NCBI GenBank assembly: GCA_022767895.1
Contig: JALENH010000026.1
Coordinates: 1-32,742, forward strand
Direction of reading: 5' to 3'
Length of the DNA stretch: 32,742 nucleotides
Source: Eubacterium sp.
GTDB taxonomy: Bacteria > Bacillota > Clostridia > Lachnospirales > Lachnospiraceae
A program made the translations under genes and the position numbers. The notes below the pieces were generated by a model. The model was not told the DNA's origin. It searched no databases and saw only the letters and a program-made list of their open reading frames with translations. Every line of letters starts with the position of its first letter. Positions within the stretch are counted from its first letter, which is position 1. This document shows positions 9,020-25,851 of this stretch, in pieces.

Positions 9020-9328
9020 TTTTCTCTCCCTGAATCATAGGCTTATAGCAACACATTCATTATAGCAGAGAAAATGACAAAATGAAATATTATTTCGTGC
9101 GCTTTTCCTCAATCAATATAATCTTCAGATGGCAAGACGTTACTGGAACAACGAGCCATCGGAAGACCGTCCGGTTCTGGAATTGCTGGCGGCCGGAAAG
9201 CTTACTGTAAAAGAAATTTATCCGACACCGTAAAAACGGTGCCGGCACAAAAAGCAACCTCGTTTGTCCACAGAAGTATAGTCTGGTTCTCCATGACGAA
9301 TTAAATAGAAAAGTGCCATAATTTTCTC

Positions 9329-11245
9329 CTACTCACAATCAATCCCAAGTCCACCTTCATCCCAGCGCACTTTCCGAATTCTTGCATGGCGACACGGGTC
9401 ATAAAGAGGATCATTATCCGCATACCCACATTTCCCCTCAAAACACTCTTTACTTCTGGCATGATACACAATCCAGTCTTCTCCGTTTTCGTCCTTCACA
9501 AAGGAATTATGACCCGGACCATACTCATTCTGCAAATCCTCCGATGTCAGTACTGGGTGCGGCTTCTTTTCCCAGGAAGCAACGGAAAGCAAATCACTTT
9601 CCTCTTCCGCCTCAAGCACTCCGACGCAATATTCCGGTCCGGTTCCCGACGCAGAAAAGCATACATATATTTTCCCCTCATGCTTGATTACCGCCGGCCC
9701 TTCGTTCACAGCAAATCGAACCTTTTCCCAGTCATATTCCGGCTTTGTCAAAAGCATCGGCAGAGAAATCAAATGCCATGGCTCTTCCGGATTCACTTCA
9801 CCGAGATAAAGACAGGAAATTTTATCCTCGTTGTGCTGTGCCCAAATGACATAGGAGTGTCCTGCCGCCTCAAAATAAGTCATATCAAGAGAAAATCCCG
9901 TGAAAGAAAACGTGTCCTCCGGCAGCTTTCCAAATTTACCTTTTTCTACCCATTTCCCGGTATAAGGATCGTCCCCCTCGCACTGCAGCACATGACAGTC
10001 AAATGCCCACCGGTTCTCTGTACTGCAGCTACCGGCGTAAAAAATATACCATTTTCCATTTATCTCATGAAGCTCCGGTGCCCAAATAAACCGATGACTG
10101 GCAGTGGATTCATCCGCTTCCCAAATGGTTATTTCTTCTTCCTGCGACAGTTCCTGAATCGTCTTTCCACGGCGAAGAATGACTCGGTCATACCCTTCCG
10201 GGTCCCCGTCACTTTTCATGGGATAGGATGCTGTAAAGTAATAGAATCCATCGGATCCTTTCATCACATAGGGATCCGCCCGCTCCAAAATGAACGGATT
10301 GGGGTATTTTTCTTTTTCCAATTGTTTACGAAGCTGGCAAATCAATTTCTTCTGCTCTTCGTTCTCCCTCTTCTGCTCTTCCAATTCCTTCTCAAGCCGC
10401 TCTACTTTTGACTGATTCGTTTTATTTAAACTTGCGATAATATCTTCTTTTTCAAAAAAGTCTGTCATGAGTTCCATCAATTCCTCCCGGTCTTTTGTAA
10501 TCAGTATAACACGAGAAAACACAGCTTGAAAAGAACTATTTTTTGCAAGAAATTTCTCCATATCCTCCACTTGGTCAATGGTGAGAAAATTTAACCATCT
10601 CTCCAGTTCTCCTGCTACATGAGGTTTTTGTTTTTTGAATATATCCAAACATATGTAATCGTAATATTGTAGCAGTTCCTGCTCCACTCCGGTATTGCTA
10701 GTCTGCTGAAAATGATGATGATACTTACCACTTTGTTTAAATTCCATAGGGCTATTCTCAAAGATTATTATTGTATAAACTGGTTGAATACGCTCAAAAT
10801 CAACCTCGGATTTTGGCTCCCCTTTTTCCACCGCATACTGTCTGGTTACCAGATCTGCCGAATAGCAGGCGGCCCGTTTGGAGGGAAAACGAATTCCATA
10901 TCGTTGTATTTCAACATTTCCAATGGAACCATTTTCAAATTGCACAACAAGATCCATCACAATACCCTTGCTGTACATACTGTGGTGACGTCCCTCATTT
11001 TTTAAAGAATGCAATACTTTTACCTTTTTCCCCAAAATTGCACTAATAAACCGAGACAGCTGTTCCCCGTTTTCATCCGGATCAAAAATCGTCTTAAAAA
11101 CGGTATCATTCAGCAAGTCCGGCACCCGGATACCAGCATCCACTTCCTGTAATTCCTTTTGTGTCTGCGGACTTAATCGGCTCCACAAATAAAAAAGCTC
11201 CTTGTCCATTTTGATCCGCTCATATAAAGATGTTGTTCTCTCCAT
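9329..11245 (-). CDS. Fusion protein: Rpn/PD-(D/E)XK nuclease family transposase-like domain + coiled coil + GH43 glycoside hydrolase domain
   Basis: N-terminal LLNDTVFKTIFDPDENGEQLSRFISAILGKKV...MDLVVQFENGSIGNVEIQRYG (D...ExQ); coiled coil VERLEKELEEQKRENEEQKKLICQLRKQLEKEK; then YPNPFILERADPYV...WAPELHEINGKWYIFYAG...NEGPAVIKHEGKIYVCFSASG...GHNSFVKDENGEDWIVYHAR (GH43). One uninterrupted frame. Confidence 0.88.
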   Translation of the reverse strand: MERTTSLYERIKMDKELFYLWSRLSPQTQKELQEVDAGIRVPDLLNDTVFKTIFDPDENGEQLSRFISAILGKKVKVLHSLKNEGRHHSMYSKGIVMDLVVQFENGSIGNVEIQRYGIRFPSKRAACYSADLVTRQYAVEKGEPKSEVDFERIQPVYTIIIFENSPMEFKQSGKYHHHFQQTSNTGVEQELLQYYDYICLDIFKKQKPHVAGELERWLNFLTIDQVEDMEKFLAKNSSFQAVFSRVILITKDREELMELMTDFFEKEDIIASLNKTNQSKVERLEKELEEQKRENEEQKKLICQLRKQLEKEKYPNPFILERADPYVMKGSDGFYYFTASYPMKSDGDPEGYDRVILRRGKTIQELSQEEEITIWEADESTASHRFIWAPELHEINGKWYIFYAGSCSTENRWAFDCHVLQCEGDDPYTGKWVEKGKFGKLPEDTFSFTGFSLDMTYFEAAGHSYVIWAQHNEDKISCLYLGEVNPEEPWHLISLPMLLTKPEYDWEKVRFAVNEGPAVIKHEGKIYVCFSASGTGPEYCVGVLEAEEESDLLSVASWEKKPHPVLTSEDLQNEYGPGHNSFVKDENGEDWIVYHARSKECFEGKCGYADNDPLYDPCRHARIRKVRWDEGGLGIDCE

Positions 11246-12372: not shown

Positions 12373-13551
12373 TTACTCCTTTCTGCAAACCACAACTCCT
12401 GTTGCCTTATGAATAAAGAAAAAACCTTCTGAATTTTTCTGGCTCTCAACCAAATCAAAAAAACGCTCTTTGTTCCTTTCCAACCTTTCGGCATTCTCCT
12501 TGGAATAGGATGATACGTACTCATATATCAAATCCGTATCTGGTACAAGCAAATCATTTTCCTGTTCCCACCATTGTATCCCGGTAAAATATTCTGCAAG
12601 TTCGTGTTGTGCAGTTTCCAAAAAAATATCAAAAGATTCTAACGGAATATCCATGTCGGAATCAAATTCTTTTACTAATTGATGAAGTTCCCGATTATGT
12701 TCTCTGCCTATCAGACTGCTGGAAAATATACCGTTCTCTTTGAGTAAATCACGGACTTCTTTATAAAGAGAAGGGCAATTGTCATTTTTCAAATGATACA
12801 GCATGTAATTTGCCATAATCCGGTCAAAGTCACCAACCGGATAAGAAAAGTTTTCCGCGTCCTTTTTTTCCAGAGTAAATCGTAACCTTTTCTCTGGAAA
12901 TTTTTGCTGTAGTTCGTTCATGGTTCTCCCAGCGGCCTCAATCATCCCATCGGAATAATCCGTTAAATGAATTTCCAAATTTTCCGGAAGTTGTGGTGCA
13001 ACTCCCTTCCAAAAAGCAGCGTTTCCACAACCAATTTCCAATATTTTCATACCCGGCTCCAGCCGAAGTTTTTCAAGCATCCATGGAAAGAATCCAACCT
13101 CCGCCGTACTGTAATCATGGATACTTACCCGCTTATTAAAATTATCATCGTCCCGGTATTGTTCAATTACAAACTCCCTCTCTCGCGTAAGTTCCACAAT
13201 CCGTCGAAGTTTTTGCCACAAATCGGTGGTATCTGCCTTCCTCGCCTGACGCACTGCAAAAAGAACCCGTTCCATGTGCTCCGACTTTTCAATTAGCAAC
13301 CGCTCCTGTTCTGCCAGAGACTGCCTGACATCAATATCTCCCGGTTCTATCATTTGCTTAATTTGTTCCAGGGAAAATTTCAGATACCGCAGCATCAGGA
13401 TTTTCTGTAACTTTTCCACACTGCTTTCATCATAAATTCGGTATCCTGCTTCCGAATATCCCCCCGGTCTCAAAATACCTTTCTCATCATAAAAGCGCAC
13501 TGTCCTTGCCGACACACCTAATTTTTTTGCCAGTTCTCCCGCTGTGTACAT
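12373..13551 (-). CDS. MerR family regulator fused to class I SAM-dependent methyltransferase
   Basis: MYTAGELAKKLGVSARTVRFYDEKGILRPGGYSEAGYRIYDE (MerR HTH); MKILEIGCGNAAFW (SAM motif I) and DRIMANYMLYHL. Confidence 0.93.
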   Translation of the reverse strand: MYTAGELAKKLGVSARTVRFYDEKGILRPGGYSEAGYRIYDESSVEKLQKILMLRYLKFSLEQIKQMIEPGDIDVRQSLAEQERLLIEKSEHMERVLFAVRQARKADTTDLWQKLRRIVELTREREFVIEQYRDDDNFNKRVSIHDYSTAEVGFFPWMLEKLRLEPGMKILEIGCGNAAFWKGVAPQLPENLEIHLTDYSDGMIEAAGRTMNELQQKFPEKRLRFTLEKKDAENFSYPVGDFDRIMANYMLYHLKNDNCPSLYKEVRDLLKENGIFSSSLIGREHNRELHQLVKEFDSDMDIPLESFDIFLETAQHELAEYFTGIQWWEQENDLLVPDTDLIYEYVSSYSKENAERLERNKERFFDLVESQKNSEGFFFIHKATGVVVCRKE

Positions 13552-16370: not shown

Positions 16371-18389
16371 TTACAATTTCACAATTTTCGCCTTACTGCC
16401 CAATCCTTTTCCCTTTAATAACTTTTTGTAGGATTTCAATTTGCTGGAAGGCACTTTGATTCGTATTTTGGCATTTACTTTCTTGAAAGCGTCTTTACCA
16501 ATCTTTTTAATTGTCTTGGAAGAGATTTTCACCGTCTTCAGTTTCTTCGCCTGGTAAAAAGCTTTCTTGCCAATTTCTGTCACTTTATACGTATGGCCTT
16601 TATAAGAAATTGTTTTCGGAATGATAACCGATGTTTTTTTCTTATTGGTAAGCAGTTTGACAGAAACCGTTTTCGTCTTTTGTGTTGAACTGGTAATCGT
16701 ATATTTCAGGGCACCCTTTTTTATCACTGTCCCCTTCTTGGGCAGAACCGGGTCTACCGTAGAAACAGGATTGCTTGTCGGGGTTGGTGAAACGGTAGGT
16801 ACCGGAGTCCCACTCGGTAAAGGTGTTCCCTGCGGAGTCGGTTTGTTGCCCGGTGTCGGGGAAGGTTCTGTCACCTCTTTTTCCACAAGTCCTGCCTTCG
16901 CCGTAAGAAGAGCGACAGACGCCCTCTGTATTTCTTCCGCAGTTGCCGCCCCATTGGCACTTACCTGCTTTGCTGTCTGAATGGCACTGGCAAGCGCCGT
17001 TTTTGATGCGTCGTCATACAATTCCAGATTGATACTCTCTGCCTGTGCTAAATCTGTTCGAAGCGCATTGGCCAATTCATCATAGGTCACAAACTCTGCC
17101 GACAAAACAGCCTTCTCTGCATGCATGGTGAAGGAAGTTCCATCCACAGCTCCCGGCTGTCCATACACCTGAAAAGTACCCATTTTTAAATAATAGCCGT
17201 CATTTGGCACCGCACTGACAGACACTGTATCGCCCGCATAATAAGCATCCTTTTCTGTAACAAAGGTTCCATTCTGCAAAGACTCATCACAAACCACTTC
17301 GTGACTGGAAAGCATCTTTTCATAAACCACATCGGCCCAACGCTTTCCATGTTCAATCAGACCCTTTTCACTCAGATGAAGATTATCTTCCGGGCGACGG
17401 TACTCACCTTGCAAATCATCCGTTGTCGGTCCAACAAAAATATTATAATCATTGCAGGCAGCCCGCTGTGTCTCTTTCATGGATTCCATTTTCTTGGTGT
17501 CATTGTAATTGCTCCATGCATAAGACACCTGGGCAATGACCCAGTTCAAATCATATCCGGCATCTTCCCTGGTCTGGGCAATCAGTCCTTGAAGGGATTG
17601 CAAATAGGCGTCGCGCTTCGTCCCGGGCGTATCAGCCTCTCCCTGATGGAGCAGGAAAGCACGATAGCCGTATGGTTTTAAATCAGTAATTGCACTACGT
17701 ATTGCAGCATAATGTTTCACTCTCAGTTCCTCAATTTTCGCTGAACCAACACCCGTGGAAACAAAGCCAACAGGCACACCAATTTTGGCAACCAGTGCAT
17801 CTCCCATGGACGGCCACGCCGAGCCCCCTTCATTCCCTGTATTGTAACCACTCATACTTGGCTGGCTGTCTTCACAATGCTGCCAGCTTTTCGTATTCGG
17901 ATTATAAGCCGAAACAATATCTTCTTTTGCTGTTGTCTTTGCACCCCCGAAGTTGCAGGAGTTGGATTGGCCACCGGTAATAAATACCTCGCCAACGCCA
18001 AACTTTTCCACCGTTGCACGGGCAAGTTCGGTTTCACTTGACGAATCAACAGCTTTTACAGCCAGTTGATACCAGCCACCACCGGGAATGTTAGCAATGG
18101 TACCTGAATACGTTGTTCCCTCACCTTTTGTCAGAGAAATCCATTCACTCAGTTCATCACCATTCTTCATAACCTGCGCCTGAACGGTGCCTTTGCCATT
18201 ATACTGAACAGTCACATTAATCTGTGCCTTATTTTCATTATCCCGTTGATAAATAGCCCGTTCCGTAGGAATTGTGACATCAATATTATCCGCAGCATGA
18301 ATTACTGATGGAAAAGCTAGCATCCCCAGCAGCAATGCTGCTGAGAATACAATTTTTTTTGCGCTTTTTAGATTCATAACAAACCTCAT
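16371..18389 (-). CDS. Secreted sialate O-acetylesterase/acetylxylan esterase-like (SGNH/DUF303) with FIVAR-like domain, Pro/Thr linker and Lys-rich BspA-type LRR C-terminus
   Basis: Signal peptide; FITGGQSNSCNFGG block I; LLHQGEADT; DNLHLSEKGLIEHG; DELANALRTDLAQAESINLELYDDASKTALASAI; PTPxGT linker; KVTEIGKKAFYQAKKLKTVKISSKTIKKIGKDAF. Confidence 0.88.
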   Translation of the reverse strand: MRFVMNLKSAKKIVFSAALLLGMLAFPSVIHAADNIDVTIPTERAIYQRDNENKAQINVTVQYNGKGTVQAQVMKNGDELSEWISLTKGEGTTYSGTIANIPGGGWYQLAVKAVDSSSETELARATVEKFGVGEVFITGGQSNSCNFGGAKTTAKEDIVSAYNPNTKSWQHCEDSQPSMSGYNTGNEGGSAWPSMGDALVAKIGVPVGFVSTGVGSAKIEELRVKHYAAIRSAITDLKPYGYRAFLLHQGEADTPGTKRDAYLQSLQGLIAQTREDAGYDLNWVIAQVSYAWSNYNDTKKMESMKETQRAACNDYNIFVGPTTDDLQGEYRRPEDNLHLSEKGLIEHGKRWADVVYEKMLSSHEVVCDESLQNGTFVTEKDAYYAGDTVSVSAVPNDGYYLKMGTFQVYGQPGAVDGTSFTMHAEKAVLSAEFVTYDELANALRTDLAQAESINLELYDDASKTALASAIQTAKQVSANGAATAEEIQRASVALLTAKAGLVEKEVTEPSPTPGNKPTPQGTPLPSGTPVPTVSPTPTSNPVSTVDPVLPKKGTVIKKGALKYTITSSTQKTKTVSVKLLTNKKKTSVIIPKTISYKGHTYKVTEIGKKAFYQAKKLKTVKISSKTIKKIGKDAFKKVNAKIRIKVPSSKLKSYKKLLKGKGLGSKAKIVKL

Positions 18390-18409
18390 CTCATTAAGTC
18401 CTGTTTTCT

Positions 18410-19726
18410 TTATGGCTCAAAAGTGATTTTTGTAATCGTTACCGAACCTGCAAAGCCTTTCTGACCGGCATTAATCACGACAAAGGGGTCGGTTCCTGTA
18501 GCCGCTAATACATTATTCAGTGTGATTTCAAAAAGTCCGGTAGAAGTAACGCCATATTTCGGATCTGTTACCTCTGCTCCATCCACCTTATGCCCCAGAA
18601 TACCATGGAATTCAAATTCCGGGTCGGAAGATGTAAACTCGATTTTGCAGGTTTTATATTTGCTAAAATCGATGTCTGCCGGAAGATTAACTTTAGCAGT
18701 CGCCGCGTACTGGTTCATACCACTTTCTACATAGCTAACAGTTGGCGGCAAACTCTCAACCAGGCTCTCGCCTCCTACTTCAATGGACGTGTACGTAAAT
18801 GTTCCTTTGAATCCTGCTGAGGCAGTGGCAACATGCATATATACCGTATCTTCCTCACCAATTTTGGCAAGATGGTCCGCCGTAATTGGAATACTGATAC
18901 TTCCTCCCATTTTTCCGTAAGCATCAAGCACTGCTGGAGAATTCCATTTATCACCTGTCTTCAAAGCGATATTGAAGCCCTGTGTGTCCTTTACATCACT
19001 TTCTCCTTCCACCGCTGTATAAGTAAGCACAATAGTACTACCCTCCGTCAATTTGCTCTTGTCAATGGCAAAAATACCCATGGAGGAATAAGCCGCAAAA
19101 CCATTTGGTTCATAGGTAAAGGAAGCACTTTCTCCTAAATCATCCCCCTCCAGTACGAGAGATTTTGGTTCTTCAGGCGGAACAGGTGTTGGCGTTGGTG
19201 TCGCTGTTGGCGTTGCTGTCGGCGTTGCCGTTGGCGTTGCTGTTGGTGTTGCCGTTGGTGTATTATCCGTTTTTGCCGGTGGCGTTGGAGAATTGCTCGC
19301 TTTTGCCGGCGGGGTCGGTGTTGAGGTATTCTTCACCGTCGCATTATCGTCCTTCTTAACAGCATCTTTCGATTTTACCGTTACTTTAATCGTCTTTTTA
19401 TAAGTTTTCTTTCCTGCTTTCATGGCAACGGAAATATCGGCAGTTCCTTTCCTTAATCCCTTGATTGTGGCACCCTTTTTAGATTTCTTGGTGAGTTTCA
19501 CAATCTTCCCCGATTTTTTGGACAATTTCCAAGTAACCTTTTTCGCATTTTTAACAGTTACCTTTTTTGTCTTTCCTACCGATACTGTTACTTTAGTTGT
19601 ACTCAATTTCGGTTTCTTCACCTTTCCATCCACCGAAGCTGCCGGCATGGATGATGCAATCATCCCAAAAGCTAATAGAACAGCCAGCCCTTTGGCGTGA
19701 GCCATAGATACTACATTTCTTTTCAT
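18410..19726 (-). CDS. Secreted protein with Lys-rich Ig-like module, (TPTA)n linker and two beta-rich carbohydrate-binding-like domains; no recognisable catalytic domain
   Basis: SD aggagg upstream of MKRNVVSMAHAKGLAVLLAFGMIASS; VKKPKLSTTKVTVSVGKTKKVTVKNAKKVTWKLSKK; TPTATPTATPTA linker; C-terminal beta-rich region. Confidence 0.75.
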   Translation of the reverse strand: MKRNVVSMAHAKGLAVLLAFGMIASSMPAASVDGKVKKPKLSTTKVTVSVGKTKKVTVKNAKKVTWKLSKKSGKIVKLTKKSKKGATIKGLRKGTADISVAMKAGKKTYKKTIKVTVKSKDAVKKDDNATVKNTSTPTPPAKASNSPTPPAKTDNTPTATPTATPTATPTATPTATPTPTPVPPEEPKSLVLEGDDLGESASFTYEPNGFAAYSSMGIFAIDKSKLTEGSTIVLTYTAVEGESDVKDTQGFNIALKTGDKWNSPAVLDAYGKMGGSISIPITADHLAKIGEEDTVYMHVATASAGFKGTFTYTSIEVGGESLVESLPPTVSYVESGMNQYAATAKVNLPADIDFSKYKTCKIEFTSSDPEFEFHGILGHKVDGAEVTDPKYGVTSTGLFEITLNNVLAATGTDPFVVINAGQKGFAGSVTITKITFEP

Positions 19727-19751
19727 TTCATTTCCTCCTAATTTTAGATAT

Positions 19752-22259
19752 TTAATCATAAATCTTATAATAATCAAAGTCTACGTACCCACCGGTCTGC
19801 GTCGTTGCATAGTTGTACAAATAGGTACGATATCCCATGAAAATTGTAAGATCATAATTCATTGTCAGGTTTCCTCCAATCTGGTTCCATTTTGTTCCAT
19901 CCAGACTATAGAAGAAAGTTGCTGTGTTACTGGTAAAGTTATACTTAATTTTTAATTTCACTGTATCCTGTTCCAGTGCAATTTTATCTGCATCTTTTAC
20001 CGTCATTTCTGTTTTTCCGCTTCCATAGTAAATCCATGATTTACCATCTTCATCCTTCATGACGCCTACTTGACCATAAGAGTTCTGGAATGCACAGATT
20101 CCGGCGTAATCGCCTGCCTTCATCTGACTGACATCCATTCCCACCTCAGAAGTACAAGTCGGGCCATAGGTCCTCTGCGTCAGTGAGTTTCTTGCATCCT
20201 TAATACTGTCAGCAAGAGAACCTGTCTTCAATCTCAGATAGCCTTCCCGTTCAGTCACAGACCAATTGGCATTATCCGGATTATGATTCCACTGCCATAC
20301 AAGCTGTAATTTATTTTCCGTGTAACTGAACTCATCGTCTGCATAAATGTAATTCTTTCCTGAACTCGTCAGATTTACATCAAGTTCCTCGGAGGCACTT
20401 GCCTTACCGTTGTCCGAACCCATCATCGGCCATCCATCGATCCAATATACATCCAGAAGGACAGGTGTTCTTCCAACGGCTCCGTGATCCTGGAACAAAA
20501 TGGCATACCAGTCACCATATTTCGTGTCCACAATTCCACCTTGGGCAATTCCGGCACCTTTGTAATTGCCGTCATCACAGAATACTACCTTACCTTCCCA
20601 CTCTCCGGTCAGACTCGTAGAACGATAGCACCACTGCATCCGCTTGCCACCATTTGGCCATTCAATAAAGAACAAATAATAATAGTCACCAATTTTGTAA
20701 GCATGAGAACCTTCAATATTTACGATATTTCCTGCAGCTGTTTTCTTAATAATCGTCTGGGCATTATCCTTAAACACAATCTGGTCGCCGGATAACTCTG
20801 CCTCCTGAATAGTGATATTGCCATTCCCGGAAACGACATACATTTTTCCGTCATCAAAAATCAGCCCCGGGTCATGTTTCGTTCCATTTGCAGAATGCTT
20901 CTCCCATGTTCCATTGGCAATATCTGTTGTCGTATAAATATAAGTCTTGGCCTGATCATTGCTGGAGAAACATACGTAATATGTCTCATCAGCCTCGTTA
21001 TACCGCAGGCTGGCTGCCCAGGAACCTTTCCCATAACACTGTTTGCCATTCTGAAGATTCGTAATATCATTGTCTTCCAGTGTGTCATACACATAGTTAA
21101 TAATTTCCCAATGTACCAAATCCGTAGAATGCATAATCGGTACACCCGGATTCAAAAACATCGTGGTGCTTACCATGTAGTAATCATCACCGACACGAAT
21201 ATAATCCATATCCGGAACATCGGTATACATCAACGGAAGAGATGCGGTTGCATGAACTCCCGGTGCCGTCGTCTCTCTCGCCGGAACCTGATCTGCCGGA
21301 ATATCCGATGGCATGACAACCGGCGTTGGAGTCGGAATCGTATTCATTTTGTAGCTCACATCAATACTTTTTATAATCAAATCATCAACGCTGTCCTGCC
21401 AGGAAATTCCTTTGAATTCCAAATATCCCACTTTGTCCGTCGCAGTGAGTGAAAGATCCCATTCGAAATCCCCTGAGATTCCTGCCTCTGTTGATTTCAG
21501 CTGTTCCGAGAAATTGCCGTCTCCGGAAGCTGCCAGCCATACACGAAATCCAAGTGTCCCATTGTATGTTCCCTTGATTTTCAAAGTCACCTTTGTTCCC
21601 GCGGTAACACTTTCCGGCAAAGGCACATGGAAAAACTTTACGCCCTTTGCCTGTAGCTGTTTTGTCGTTGCGTCATATGTCACTGTACCGGTTCCACTTC
21701 CATTGGTGAATTTTAACAAATTCAGGGAAGTATTTGTCACACCCGGTTCCAAAGGTGGTGTCGCTGTTGGCGTTGCTGTTGGAGTTGCTGTCGCCGTTAC
21801 AGCATCTGTCGGTTTTGGGGTTGGCGTCGCTACGTTACTCTTATTGCCAGCCTGATTCGTTGACTTCTGAGTTGTACTTCCACTGTCTTTTTGGGTTTTA
21901 GCCGCTTTCACTTTAACCTGAATTTTCTTTTTATACGATTTTTTCCCGGCTTTCATTGTCACCAAAATACTTGCAGAACCCTTTCTGAGTCCTTTGATTG
22001 TGGCCCCTTTTTTCGATGTCTTGGAAAGCTTTATCACTTTTTTAGCTTTCTTTTCCAACTTCCAGGTCACCTTTTTCGCATTTTTCACTGTAACCTTTTT
22101 ACTTTTTCCAACTGTTACTGTTACCTTTGTTGCGCTCAGTCTGGGTTTCTTTACCTTTCCGGATGCCTGTGGAATGGATTGTGTTGACGCAATCATTCCC
22201 ACTGCAAGCAAAACAGCCAGTCCCTTTACATGAACACTCCCCATAAGTTTTTGCTTCAT
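19752..22259 (-). CDS. Secreted GH43 family glycoside hydrolase (xylosidase/arabinofuranosidase-like) with Lys-rich Ig-like module and CBM-like domain
   Basis: Signal peptide; GKVKKPRLSATKVTVTVGKSKKVTVKNAKK; TPTATP linker; YTDVPDMDYIRVGDDYYMVSTTMFLNPGVPIMHSTDLVHWE and VNIEGSHAYKIGDYYYLFFIEWP of GH43; C-terminal ConA-like domain. Confidence 0.93.
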   Translation of the reverse strand: MKQKLMGSVHVKGLAVLLAVGMIASTQSIPQASGKVKKPRLSATKVTVTVGKSKKVTVKNAKKVTWKLEKKAKKVIKLSKTSKKGATIKGLRKGSASILVTMKAGKKSYKKKIQVKVKAAKTQKDSGSTTQKSTNQAGNKSNVATPTPKPTDAVTATATPTATPTATPPLEPGVTNTSLNLLKFTNGSGTGTVTYDATTKQLQAKGVKFFHVPLPESVTAGTKVTLKIKGTYNGTLGFRVWLAASGDGNFSEQLKSTEAGISGDFEWDLSLTATDKVGYLEFKGISWQDSVDDLIIKSIDVSYKMNTIPTPTPVVMPSDIPADQVPARETTAPGVHATASLPLMYTDVPDMDYIRVGDDYYMVSTTMFLNPGVPIMHSTDLVHWEIINYVYDTLEDNDITNLQNGKQCYGKGSWAASLRYNEADETYYVCFSSNDQAKTYIYTTTDIANGTWEKHSANGTKHDPGLIFDDGKMYVVSGNGNITIQEAELSGDQIVFKDNAQTIIKKTAAGNIVNIEGSHAYKIGDYYYLFFIEWPNGGKRMQWCYRSTSLTGEWEGKVVFCDDGNYKGAGIAQGGIVDTKYGDWYAILFQDHGAVGRTPVLLDVYWIDGWPMMGSDNGKASASEELDVNLTSSGKNYIYADDEFSYTENKLQLVWQWNHNPDNANWSVTEREGYLRLKTGSLADSIKDARNSLTQRTYGPTCTSEVGMDVSQMKAGDYAGICAFQNSYGQVGVMKDEDGKSWIYYGSGKTEMTVKDADKIALEQDTVKLKIKYNFTSNTATFFYSLDGTKWNQIGGNLTMNYDLTIFMGYRTYLYNYATTQTGGYVDFDYYKIYD

Positions 22260-22312
22260 GTTCTTACCTCCTTATTTTTTTAGCAAGCATAAAAGCATCT
22301 CTAAAATGCAAA

Positions 22313-22343
22313 ATACTGCCATAGCAAAAAACAATGACAGTAT
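22313..22343. promoter_or_regulatory. Inverted repeat between the araC-type gene and the GH43 gene (operator or weak terminator)
   Basis: ATACTGCCAT-agcaaaaaaca-ATGACAGTAT, one mismatch (G.U pair in minus-strand RNA). Confidence 0.45.
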
Positions 22344-22462
22344 CTGCTTTATAAGAGTTGTTTTGAGGGAAAGTAAAATTGATTTACTGATTTTATAGTA
22401 TCATAATTCCCAAAAACCACAATGATATATAAAGCATTTCTTTTGATATTTTACGCACACCT

Positions 22463-23236
22463 TCACTTGTTGATACAGTGTCTTTTTCGATATACACTCG
22501 GCGAGCACTTCTCTCGGTTCTTGAACTGCCGACAGAAATGTTCTACGTTGCGGTAACCGCACCGCTCACTGATTTCGCCCACATCCAAACTGCTTCTGAC
22601 CAAAAGAAGCTTTGCCTGAAGCATACGACTTTCTATCACTTCAGAAATGCAGGAAGTATTGGCAAAGTTTTTGTACAATTTTTGTAAAGACCGCGTACTC
22701 ATATTAACCTGTTTTGCCATATTCTCTAACGTCCAGTCGTATTCCGGATGGGCATAAATCTCTCCACGCAGCCTTTCCAATGCCACTTGATACCGGGAGC
22801 TTTCTTTTGGATAGGCATAATCATGAAACCAGTGAAAAATGATGTGCATCAGGTCGGAGATAATGTATTCCTCACTGGGCTTGTGCCAATAGTTCTCACA
22901 GGCAACCATGTGCCAGTAATTCAGAAAATAATCGTAATTTTGACAGTAAATAGGTACGCCAAACGGGACATATCCCTCTGCGAACAAAGGCTCATCACAA
23001 TCGAACCGAATCCATGTGTACACTAGTTCACCTTCCTGTGCATAATAATGAACTCTCTGTCCCGGTTTGAAAATAATGCCTGTATGCTCCGGATATGGAC
23101 GCATCTCTCCTTCAACTTCTATATAAACAGCCGATTCAAACAGCATCATCTCATATTCACCCTCTGCAAACACAAGATCATCCACAAAATCTGTCGGCAT
23201 TTTCTCTCGCTCTACCGCATAAATGATTCTGAACAT
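22463..23236 (-). CDS. AraC family transcriptional regulator
   Basis: N-terminal cupin-like sensor; C-terminal WTLENMAKQVNMSTRSLQKLYKNF...LDVGEISERCGYRNVEHFCRQFKNREKCSPSVYRK double HTH. Confidence 0.95.
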   Translation of the reverse strand: MFRIIYAVEREKMPTDFVDDLVFAEGEYEMMLFESAVYIEVEGEMRPYPEHTGIIFKPGQRVHYYAQEGELVYTWIRFDCDEPLFAEGYVPFGVPIYCQNYDYFLNYWHMVACENYWHKPSEEYIISDLMHIIFHWFHDYAYPKESSRYQVALERLRGEIYAHPEYDWTLENMAKQVNMSTRSLQKLYKNFANTSCISEVIESRMLQAKLLLVRSSLDVGEISERCGYRNVEHFCRQFKNREKCSPSVYRKRHCINK

Positions 23237-23332
23237 ACAGCACCCCTCCTTTTTTCTATCATAACACGAAATATCGATTTATGACACCCCCGTTTTTCTT
23301 CTTTTTCAAATAGCTGGCACAAAAAGAACGTT

Positions 23333-23374
23333 ACAAAAAAAAGAAGAAACCGCAAACTAGCAGTTTCTTCTTTT
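23333..23374 (-). terminator. Terminator after the second secreted GH43 gene
   Basis: Reverse strand AAAAGAAGAAACTGC-tagttt-GCGGTTTCTTCTTTTTTTT. Confidence 0.8.
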
Positions 23375-23388
23375 CATATTTTTTTAAA

Positions 23389-25851
23389 TTACTTTTTGAA
23401 AACCCAAGAGTCCATCATGACATCCAGCTTACCAAACTCAAAATAGATTGTATGCTTTCCAGTCAATTTCTTACTCAATTTCTGTGTGATTTCTTTGTAC
23501 CCATCTGTCGTGGAATCCGCAAGTTTCAAGGTCACTTCGGATGCTCCCTCTGAACCAAAGTCTACATCTGCGACACCAATATAGGAACCAAGCTTTCCGT
23601 TATATACAGAGTAGTTTGTCATCCAATCTTTATTGGTACTTGTCTCTGTATTCTGTACTGTTCCTACCGTATCTGCCAGAGCAAAGGTCTCTGCCTCAAC
23701 TGTCTCATATGGATTCAGTGTGGCGATGGAACCAACACCGGAAGTTGTCATCTTCGTATCTGCGATGCTGCCATCCGCATTGGTAAAGTCACCGTTGTCA
23801 CCCAGATTCAACTCATTGACATAAGTTGTACGGTAATCCTGTTTCGTACCAATGGCAAGTGTATCTTTCTTTGTGTGGTAGAAGGCATACATCTTACCTT
23901 TGAACTCAGCCAGGCAGTGATGGTTGTTGCCGGTAGCACCAGGGAAGTAGCTTCCCGGATTTTTCAATACACATCCTACATATTTGAAATCTCCCATTGG
24001 GGAATCGCTGACCATGACGGCAATGTTTGCTGCCGGGCAATCCTCGCGTCCCGAAATTCCTGACCAGTTGGAACAATAGCTGTAATAGTATTTATCACCA
24101 ATTTTATTGATTCCGGAATCCTCAAACATATATGGTGCGTCAATCGTCTTCGCAGCGCCATCGAGGCTTACCATGTCTGCGCCCAATTTAATCACGCGGG
24201 CACATTTTGGATTGCGAATATAGTCTTCTGATTTTCCGCTGGTATCACCGATACCACCAAAGTACAGATAACCGGTTCCATCATCATCCACCAGAACAGC
24301 CGGATCAAACAACCAGGCAACTTCTTTTTCAGAACATCCCGGAACAGAACGATCAATCAATGCCTTTCCAATCGGATCCGTCCACGGGCCAGTCGGACTG
24401 TCAGCTGTCAACACGCCAATACTGCTGGCATTGTTTGCAAAGTAAAGGAAGAATTTTTCCTTACCGTTGATGGTTTTGTGGCAGGCAGCCGGTGCCCAGG
24501 AGTTTGCTGACCATTTGGCAGCTCCCTTTACGTTAATCGTACCGTGATCCGTCCAGTTTACCATATCCGCAGAAGAATAACAGTTCAGCGTCCGAATCTT
24601 GGAATAATTGTTATCTGCACTTCCTGCAGCATCATACTGCTGGGAATCATTTGTTCCGTATACATACACCCTTCCGTTGTATTCCATCGCCCATGGATCT
24701 GCTGTCAGACGGGAAGTCATGATCGGATTACCAATCTTGCCCTTTACCAATCCTGTGCTGAGATCCGGGATGCCGGAATCGCCACTATCTGCTTTTGCGA
24801 CACCTGTCATGGTCACTTCATCCAGATAGAAATCCATGAAATTGTTACTTTGGTATACGGACTGCCAGTAAAGCAATAAATCTCCTGTAAATTCAGGAAC
24901 CGTCAAAGTTGCCTCGCATTTTGTCCATGTATCATTCGGCAGTTCAAACTGTCCAACGCCGTCATAATGAGTCTGCCCATCGTCTCCCACATACTGGATA
25001 GACAAATCAATTTTGCTGTCCTCGCCGGTAGACTGCTTCGCATAAAATGTAATCTGATACTGATTACCAACCTCAACCATCTGAGCTATCCCAACACCTG
25101 CTCCATGCCAGTCTTCGGTACGATTGGATACTTTCACAGACTTTTTGGTGCCATTTGCACCATCATCTACAATGGTAAGAGTAGTGGATCCACGTGAAGC
25201 AACCGGCTCACTGTCACCATTCTCCATATTGGCATCAATGAGCAATGCCGCTGTTGGGGCTGGTGTTGCATCCCCTTTCAGCGGAGTTGGTGACGGTGTC
25301 GGCATATGTCCAACCCCATCCACTTCAGCAAGCTTGTTAGCCTCTGTAATCTCATCGGAGTATACCTTCACCGAGATGCCCTTCTCCGTCGGAGCCGGGG
25401 TCGGTGTTGCCTTTTTATCACCGCTGTTGCTGGCGTTGTTATTGGCATTGTTCGTCACCTTCGCTGTTGGCGTACTCTTTGTGACAACGGAGGTCTTCTT
25501 CGTAACTGTAACCTTCACAGTTCCCAGCTTTCTTGCTTTTCCTTTTCCCTTTTTCTTAATCTCTTTTACCGTAATCTTTGCTGTTCCTTTTTTAACGCCT
25601 GTCACGATTCCCTTTTTGGAAACTTTTGCAACTTTCTTTTTGCTGCTGGTGAAGGTGTACTTGCAGGATTTACTTTTGTTAGTAATCTTTATTGTTTTCT
25701 TCTTTCCCACCTGTACACTGATTTTCTTAGTCTTCAATTTTGCCTTTTTTGCTTTTGCCCCTGCATCTGGTGCTGTCATCCCACCAAGTGTCATGGACAA
25801 AGCTAAAACCCCTGACAAAACAACTCCGCTTACGCGTTTCCATTGTTTCAT
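23389..25851 (-). CDS. Secreted GH43 family glycoside hydrolase with Lys-rich Ig-like module, CenC-like CBM and C-terminal CBM6-like domain
   Basis: Signal peptide; KAKLKTKKISVQVGKKKTIKITNK; TSRLTADPWAMEYNGRVYVYGTND; WLFDPAVLVDDDGTGYLYFGG; APYMFEDSGINKIGDKYYYSYCSNW. Confidence 0.93.
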   Translation of the reverse strand: MKQWKRVSGVVLSGVLALSMTLGGMTAPDAGAKAKKAKLKTKKISVQVGKKKTIKITNKSKSCKYTFTSSKKKVAKVSKKGIVTGVKKGTAKITVKEIKKKGKGKARKLGTVKVTVTKKTSVVTKSTPTAKVTNNANNNASNSGDKKATPTPAPTEKGISVKVYSDEITEANKLAEVDGVGHMPTPSPTPLKGDATPAPTAALLIDANMENGDSEPVASRGSTTLTIVDDGANGTKKSVKVSNRTEDWHGAGVGIAQMVEVGNQYQITFYAKQSTGEDSKIDLSIQYVGDDGQTHYDGVGQFELPNDTWTKCEATLTVPEFTGDLLLYWQSVYQSNNFMDFYLDEVTMTGVAKADSGDSGIPDLSTGLVKGKIGNPIMTSRLTADPWAMEYNGRVYVYGTNDSQQYDAAGSADNNYSKIRTLNCYSSADMVNWTDHGTINVKGAAKWSANSWAPAACHKTINGKEKFFLYFANNASSIGVLTADSPTGPWTDPIGKALIDRSVPGCSEKEVAWLFDPAVLVDDDGTGYLYFGGIGDTSGKSEDYIRNPKCARVIKLGADMVSLDGAAKTIDAPYMFEDSGINKIGDKYYYSYCSNWSGISGREDCPAANIAVMVSDSPMGDFKYVGCVLKNPGSYFPGATGNNHHCLAEFKGKMYAFYHTKKDTLAIGTKQDYRTTYVNELNLGDNGDFTNADGSIADTKMTTSGVGSIATLNPYETVEAETFALADTVGTVQNTETSTNKDWMTNYSVYNGKLGSYIGVADVDFGSEGASEVTLKLADSTTDGYKEITQKLSKKLTGKHTIYFEFGKLDVMMDSWVFKK

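Follow-up and report, generated by a model that had tools for sequence, protein, structure and literature searches.

The window, that is, the whole 32,742-nucleotide stretch of DNA analysed, is the entire contig C47 of a draft MAG (332 contigs, 2.58 Mb, 90% complete). It holds a gene in which an Rpn-type nuclease domain, a long helix and a GH43 glycoside hydrolase domain are joined in one frame (Table 1). The ATG of this gene (11245-11243) is preceded at about 7 nt by the ribosome site AGGGGG, and its stop codon lies at 9331-9329. No stop or frameshift interrupts the 638 codons, and all six key catalytic residues are kept. With two full-length domains, no stop and both active sites preserved, the frame is far beyond chance. 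The original prediction had given its extent exactly, leaving unstated that it lies on the minus strand. Named relatives of both halves come mostly from Lachnospiraceae and other Clostridia.

Table 1. Features of the fusion gene and of the frame that follows it
Feature	Position in window (nt)	Strand	Basis
Fusion gene, 638 aa (PDDEXK_2 nuclease, long helix, GH43)	9329..11245	minus	Reading frame and Pfam
PDDEXK_2/Rpn-type nuclease domain, residues 45-258	10472..11113	minus	Pfam PF12784
Nuclease catalytic residues D98, E112, Q114	10954-10952, 10912-10910, 10906-10904	minus	Alignment A2
Candidate internal extended -10 promoter TGTTATACT, residues 245-248	10503..10511	minus	TGNTATAMT conserved in homologs
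Candidate internal Shine-Dalgarno GGGAGG and ATG (codon 257, 10477-10475)	10475..10489	minus	Shine-Dalgarno energy, conservation
Long C-terminal helix of the rpn gene, residues 253-311	10313..10489	minus	AlphaFold models; free-standing paralogs share this tail
Junction zone, codons 309-313 (L-E-K-E-K)	10307..10321	minus	phmmer alignment with 3k1u (MENEK-ILNP against LEKEK-YPNP), start-codon scan, N-termini of relatives
GH43 domain (GH43_26-like exo-1,5-alpha-L-arabinofuranosidase), residues 314-632	9350..10306	minus	Pfam PF04616; closest solved structures
GH43 catalytic residues D324, D454, E515	10276-10274, 9886-9884, 9703-9701	minus	Alignment with AtAbf43C
33-aa frame MALFYLIRHGEPDYTSVDKRG... 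immediately following the fusion stop, with the coupling Shine-Dalgarno sequence GGAG	9218..9319	minus	Direct reading

The two enzyme halves and the helix that joins them

The nuclease half scores 78.8 bits on PDDEXK_2 (PF12784), against a curated cut-off of 27.4. Its residues D98, E112 and Q114 are invariant across 13 aligned sequences, and we take them as the counterparts of D63, E82 and Q84 of Escherichia coli RpnA, where mutation abolishes or alters activity (PMC5350276). A nuclease-like fold is predicted for the domain (pLDDT 80.5). Searches of the PDB by fold gave weak matches, among them the nucleases EcoO109I (E 0.016, probability 0.35) and EndoMS (probability 0.66), and none that reaches E 0.001, and a search by sequence profile gave nothing meaningful. 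Neither the rpn half nor its close paralogs match the NCBIfam Rpn model TIGR01784, on which a more typical member of the family scores 131.5 bits; because the clade lies in PF12784 and lacks this match, we call it Rpn-like. The PADLOC defence models gave no match for the fusion.

The likeness to the Rpn proteins (RpnA-E of E. coli, COG5464; RpnL/RpnS) lies in the predicted PD-(D/E)XK domain with its D...ExQ motif, in a variable helical C-terminal tail of the kind that oligomerises, in single-gene mobility and in the occurrence of orphan C-terminal ORFs. Unlike those proteins, the clade of the fusion falls under PF12784 instead of PF04754, and any activity of the fusion as nuclease, toxin or antitoxin is putative. 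Its closest rpn relatives are free-standing genes of 325-369 aa with their own helical tails and stops, including relatives in the genus at 65% (L013) and 57% identity (C167), the latter in the same genome. Two related genomes, G022 and G032, carry multiple rpn copies, both intact and stop-broken (e.g. L060, L062, L127, L136), and the copies in related genomes show a rapid birth and death of the family. A scan of IMG/VR returned no fusion and one distant partial relative of the rpn half (L169; contig IMGVR_UViG_3300001528_000894, 442-957), with 44% identity over residues 37-204.

The GH43 half scores 174.4 bits on Glyco_hydro_43 (PF04616), against a cut-off of 32.2, and D324, D454 and E515 line up with D168/D283/E344 of AtAbf43C, a catalytic triad confirmed by experiment (PMC12493170). 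Its propeller matches GH43 arabinofuranosidases of the PDB at E of about 1e-31, and the closest solved structures by both sequence and fold are 3k1u, 9nxj, 3akf, 5m8e and 5m8b. The GH43_26 enzymes 9nxj/9nxg and 3akf are among the best solved relatives, and the subfamily was judged by such relatives. Characterised members of this group are arabino-oligosaccharide hydrolases (PMC12493170). The fusion shares with the GH43_26 exo-1,5-alpha-L-arabinofuranosidases (SaAraf43A, 3AKF; AtAbf43C, 9NXG; the Weissella enzyme 5M8E and the L. brevis enzyme 5M8B) the five-bladed propeller, the D/D/E triad and about 40% identity and, in its close relatives, the short stand-alone domain. It differs from them in that its enzyme hangs on the rpn helix; SaAraf43A and AtAbf43C carry CBM42 instead, and no GH43_26 enzyme with a nuclease domain was found.

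The nearest GH43 proteins, at 77% (G034), 75% (CAOKVX010000028, L028) and 71% identity (G026), are free-standing, about 331 aa long, begin with sequences such as MYTDKTIYPNPFIQERADPYV and by eye have no signal peptide. In somewhat more distant members of the clade, a Laminin_G_3 domain stands at the N-terminus. The LamG-GH43 enzymes of Lachnospiraceae (L029, L030, L015), at 56-61% identity, thus resemble the fusion in clade and in having an N-terminal fused module, which in their case is Laminin_G_3 and not a nuclease. The fused GH43 groups in the clade of the free copies, with a branch length of 0.21 against 0.19 and 0.23 in those copies, and its ratio of first- and second- to third-position changes is 0.27-0.30 against 0.28 between them. 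This equality argues against a long neutral drift, not against a recent fusion; it may mostly reflect the time before the fusion. By its sequence, the GH43 half is probably a cytoplasmic arabinofuranosidase close to GH43_26, with nothing out of the ordinary.

The AlphaFold model of the fusion was based on alignment A5; the full-length alignments A1, A3 and A4, in which the rpn rows were misplaced, were left out. It consists of a nuclease-like domain, an unbroken helix over residues 253-310 and then a beta propeller, the two domains being separate bodies on the long helix (pTM 0.53). The same tail is found in free-standing rpn paralogs, which assigns the coiled coil to the rpn gene and not to the GH43. 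The junction falls between about residues 308 and 313. A TTG at 10321 (codon 309) may be the former start of the GH43 gene; as an independent GH43 start it was rejected, having no Shine-Dalgarno sequence.

These results agree with much of the original prediction, which had described an apparently intact D98...E112-x-Q114 motif, a complete GH43 domain from about nt 10306 with its catalytic acids apparently kept, and a protein predicted to be cytoplasmic, without signal peptide, and had proposed structure prediction as a check. The lack of a signal peptide had been regarded as odd; it is normal for a GH43 of this kind, as the closest relatives are free-standing cytoplasmic genes that likewise lack one. 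The charged coiled coil is present, although not as a separate part but as the C-terminal helix of the nuclease gene. The suggestion that the GH43 uses a coiled coil for oligomerisation by design thus finds no support, the coiled coil having arrived with the rpn gene.

Conserved signals inside the nuclease half

In seeking a start for the GH43 alone, we came upon a GGGAGG that stands five bases before an in-frame ATG (codon 257), from which a product of 382 aa (residues 257-638) is predicted. In rpn relatives at 50-65% protein identity the upstream pattern TGNTATAMT recurs, together with GAGG or AGGAG before an ATG or TTG, while third positions among these relatives are near saturation (identity about 0.43). 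The codon-257 position is not always ATG in the relatives, as TTG, CTG, GTG and ATT also occur. Against synonymous-codon sampling of the peptides concerned, the extended -10 match reaches z = 6.9 (0 of 2000 samples) and the Shine-Dalgarno energies, at z -3.6 to -4.1 (0 of 400 samples), are also stronger than chance. The internal site was first chosen in the fusion and then tested in the relatives; free of that choice is only the scan for synonymous constraint, which covered the whole gene with no location specified beforehand. Its top score, 6.5 against an all-window mean of 0.5 (sd 1.6), falls at residues 241-252, over the -10 element. Two lesser peaks were seen at residues 63-72 and 86-92 of the rpn gene (about nt 10970-11060). 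Promoter, Shine-Dalgarno sequence and start occur together in six of seven close homologs, against 0.13 expected under codon permutation, and in none of 28 distant PDDEXK_2 genes of the family. An internal start at the conserved Met229 was rejected, as the relatives have no conserved Shine-Dalgarno sequence there.

Each of the five rpn genes of E. coli also yields RpnS, a short protein of the C-terminal part that is translated from an internal start, and transcription has an internal start as well. In the cases tested (RpnA, RpnB and RpnP2), RpnS counteracts the toxicity of the full-length RpnL; rpn genes move as single genes, and RpnS is sometimes a separate gene (PMC10327210). The fusion and its close clade resemble this layout at the level of sequence signals. 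An orphan ORF of 97 aa in the same genome (C40:1222-1512; L007/L063) consists of the RpnS-like C-terminal part only and keeps both the -10 element and the Shine-Dalgarno sequence; further orphan C-terminal ORFs (L132, L133, L134 and L135) are found in four related genomes. Unlike RpnS, the internal product of the fusion would carry a 326-aa GH43 enzyme.

The conserved internal start points to possible production of the sugar enzyme alone on a short stalk, without the nuclease. The original prediction had missed the internal promoter and start, which alter the products to be expected of the fusion. As a finding, these conserved signals are more general than the fusion itself.

Distribution and origin of the fusion

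A search for proteins with both domains, proposed in the original prediction, found the architecture in one genome only: no protein spans both halves in 38 other genomes of the genus, in 397 drawn from the family or in 391 from the class. A GTDB pattern scan gave GH43 relatives and no fusion, and among the best matches listed for PDDEXK_2 genes in the 397 family genomes no open frame exceeds about 505 aa except the fusion (644). As no other tested genome has it, the fusion appears as a single event in one draft genome, and the combination is unusual but probably one-off. We found no synteny between the neighbours of either half and those of its relatives, and no paper joining Rpn proteins and glycoside hydrolases.

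A singleton in a draft MAG of 332 contigs could be an assembly artefact, with two unrelated pieces put together by the metagenome assembler at about 10310. The GC content steps at the junction from 39.0% in the rpn half to 47.5% in the GH43 half, and no genome searched has an rpn gene adjoining a GH43 gene, so that the ancestral arrangement was not seen. However, the junction stretch has no second copy within the genome and hence offers no repeat to misjoin on, the best relatives of both halves are in the same genus, and a random join would rarely be same-strand and in frame and bring together a helix end and a GH43 start that are both complete. We regard such a misassembly as quite improbable.

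The occurrence in one genome only also fits a recent neutral accident heading for decay, in which the frame is still open and neither activity matters to the cell, as do the numerous rpn copies of related genomes that are partial or interrupted by stops, with their fast birth and death, and the probable truncated gene directly after the fusion. This 33-aa frame resembles the opening 21 or so residues of a histidine phosphatase, after which unrelated sequence follows, although a search of relatives and Pfam gave no support for a histidine phosphatase remnant. Against decay stand the 638 uninterrupted codons with their catalytic residues, the GH43 substitution pattern, which is as constrained as that of the free copies, and the intact internal signals. 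Such an accident is unlikely.

Elsewhere in the window, a short antisense frame lies just past the 33-aa frame on the plus strand (about 9131-9235). Two genes upstream of the fusion, a MerR regulator is fused to a class I methyltransferase (12373-13551, minus strand); its PADLOC matches to MADS mad1/mad2 are probably generic to MerR and methyltransferase domains. A SASA esterase, a GH43 with GH43_C2, an AraC regulator and a CBM_4_9-GH43 (16371-25851, minus strand) make up a locus that appears to serve hemicellulose use and to be distinct from the fusion. None of the neighbouring genes supports an arabinan role.

Of the interpretations first offered for the gene, the fusion of a mobile element with a host gene is supported; full-length, free-standing relatives of both halves occur in the genus. 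The reading as a new DNA-acting protein that responds to sugar is not, as the gene occurs in one genome only and nothing marks a conserved working design. More broadly, selection could have favoured a protein with two functions, its nuclease being either controlled by sugar bound to the GH43 or directed at phage DNA that carries sugar modifications. This would suit two active sites that look intact and a GH43 attached to the very tail by which known Rpn proteins are regulated (PMC10327210). It is nonetheless highly improbable in view of the lack of recurrence in the genus, family and class samples, the arabino-oligosaccharide activity of the characterised GH43 relatives and the prediction of separate bodies on a long helix.

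Expected products and their meaning

The explanation we lean towards, with moderate confidence, is a lineage-specific fusion with two products, in which the GH43 still acts as an intracellular arabino-oligosaccharide hydrolase and is probably made partly from the internal start. An rpn-type gene, that is, a mobile, defence-type nuclease gene with a gene-within-a-gene layout, would have arrived just upstream of a free-standing cytoplasmic gene of the GH43_26 type, lost its stop codon and joined the GH43 in frame. In the relatives, the internal start would yield a short C-terminal, RpnS-like partner. Since the GH43 is fused downstream of that start, two proteins are expected, both carrying it: the ATG at 11245 would give the complete nuclease-helix-GH43 protein of 638 aa, and the internal promoter and start (10511-10475) the helix-GH43 protein of 382 aa. 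If it behaves like RpnS, the short form would exceed the long one in abundance, and may bind it via the helix and restrain it. The long form would be an active nuclease. The GH43 would remain a cytosolic arabino-oligosaccharide hydrolase, held in an oligomer by the rpn helix, with the rpn-internal promoter driving at least part of its expression.

A further possibility is that a toxin-antitoxin locus has captured a metabolic enzyme. As the antitoxin-like internal product carries the GH43, the cell would have to keep making the sugar enzyme for protection from the nuclease, or the enzyme would depend on the antitoxin promoter. We consider this distinctly unlikely.

If the lineage-specific fusion is real, it would be, within the searches made, the first link of an Rpn-type intragenic toxin-antitoxin layout with a carbohydrate enzyme. 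It would also illustrate how a mobile defence gene can absorb the metabolic gene next to it and leave an internal promoter to drive that gene. We found no earlier demonstration in the literature of a gene-within-gene layout in the PDDEXK_2 clade of Lachnospiraceae, and the conserved internal -10 element, Shine-Dalgarno sequence and start provide a sequence-level test for such layouts in this clade.
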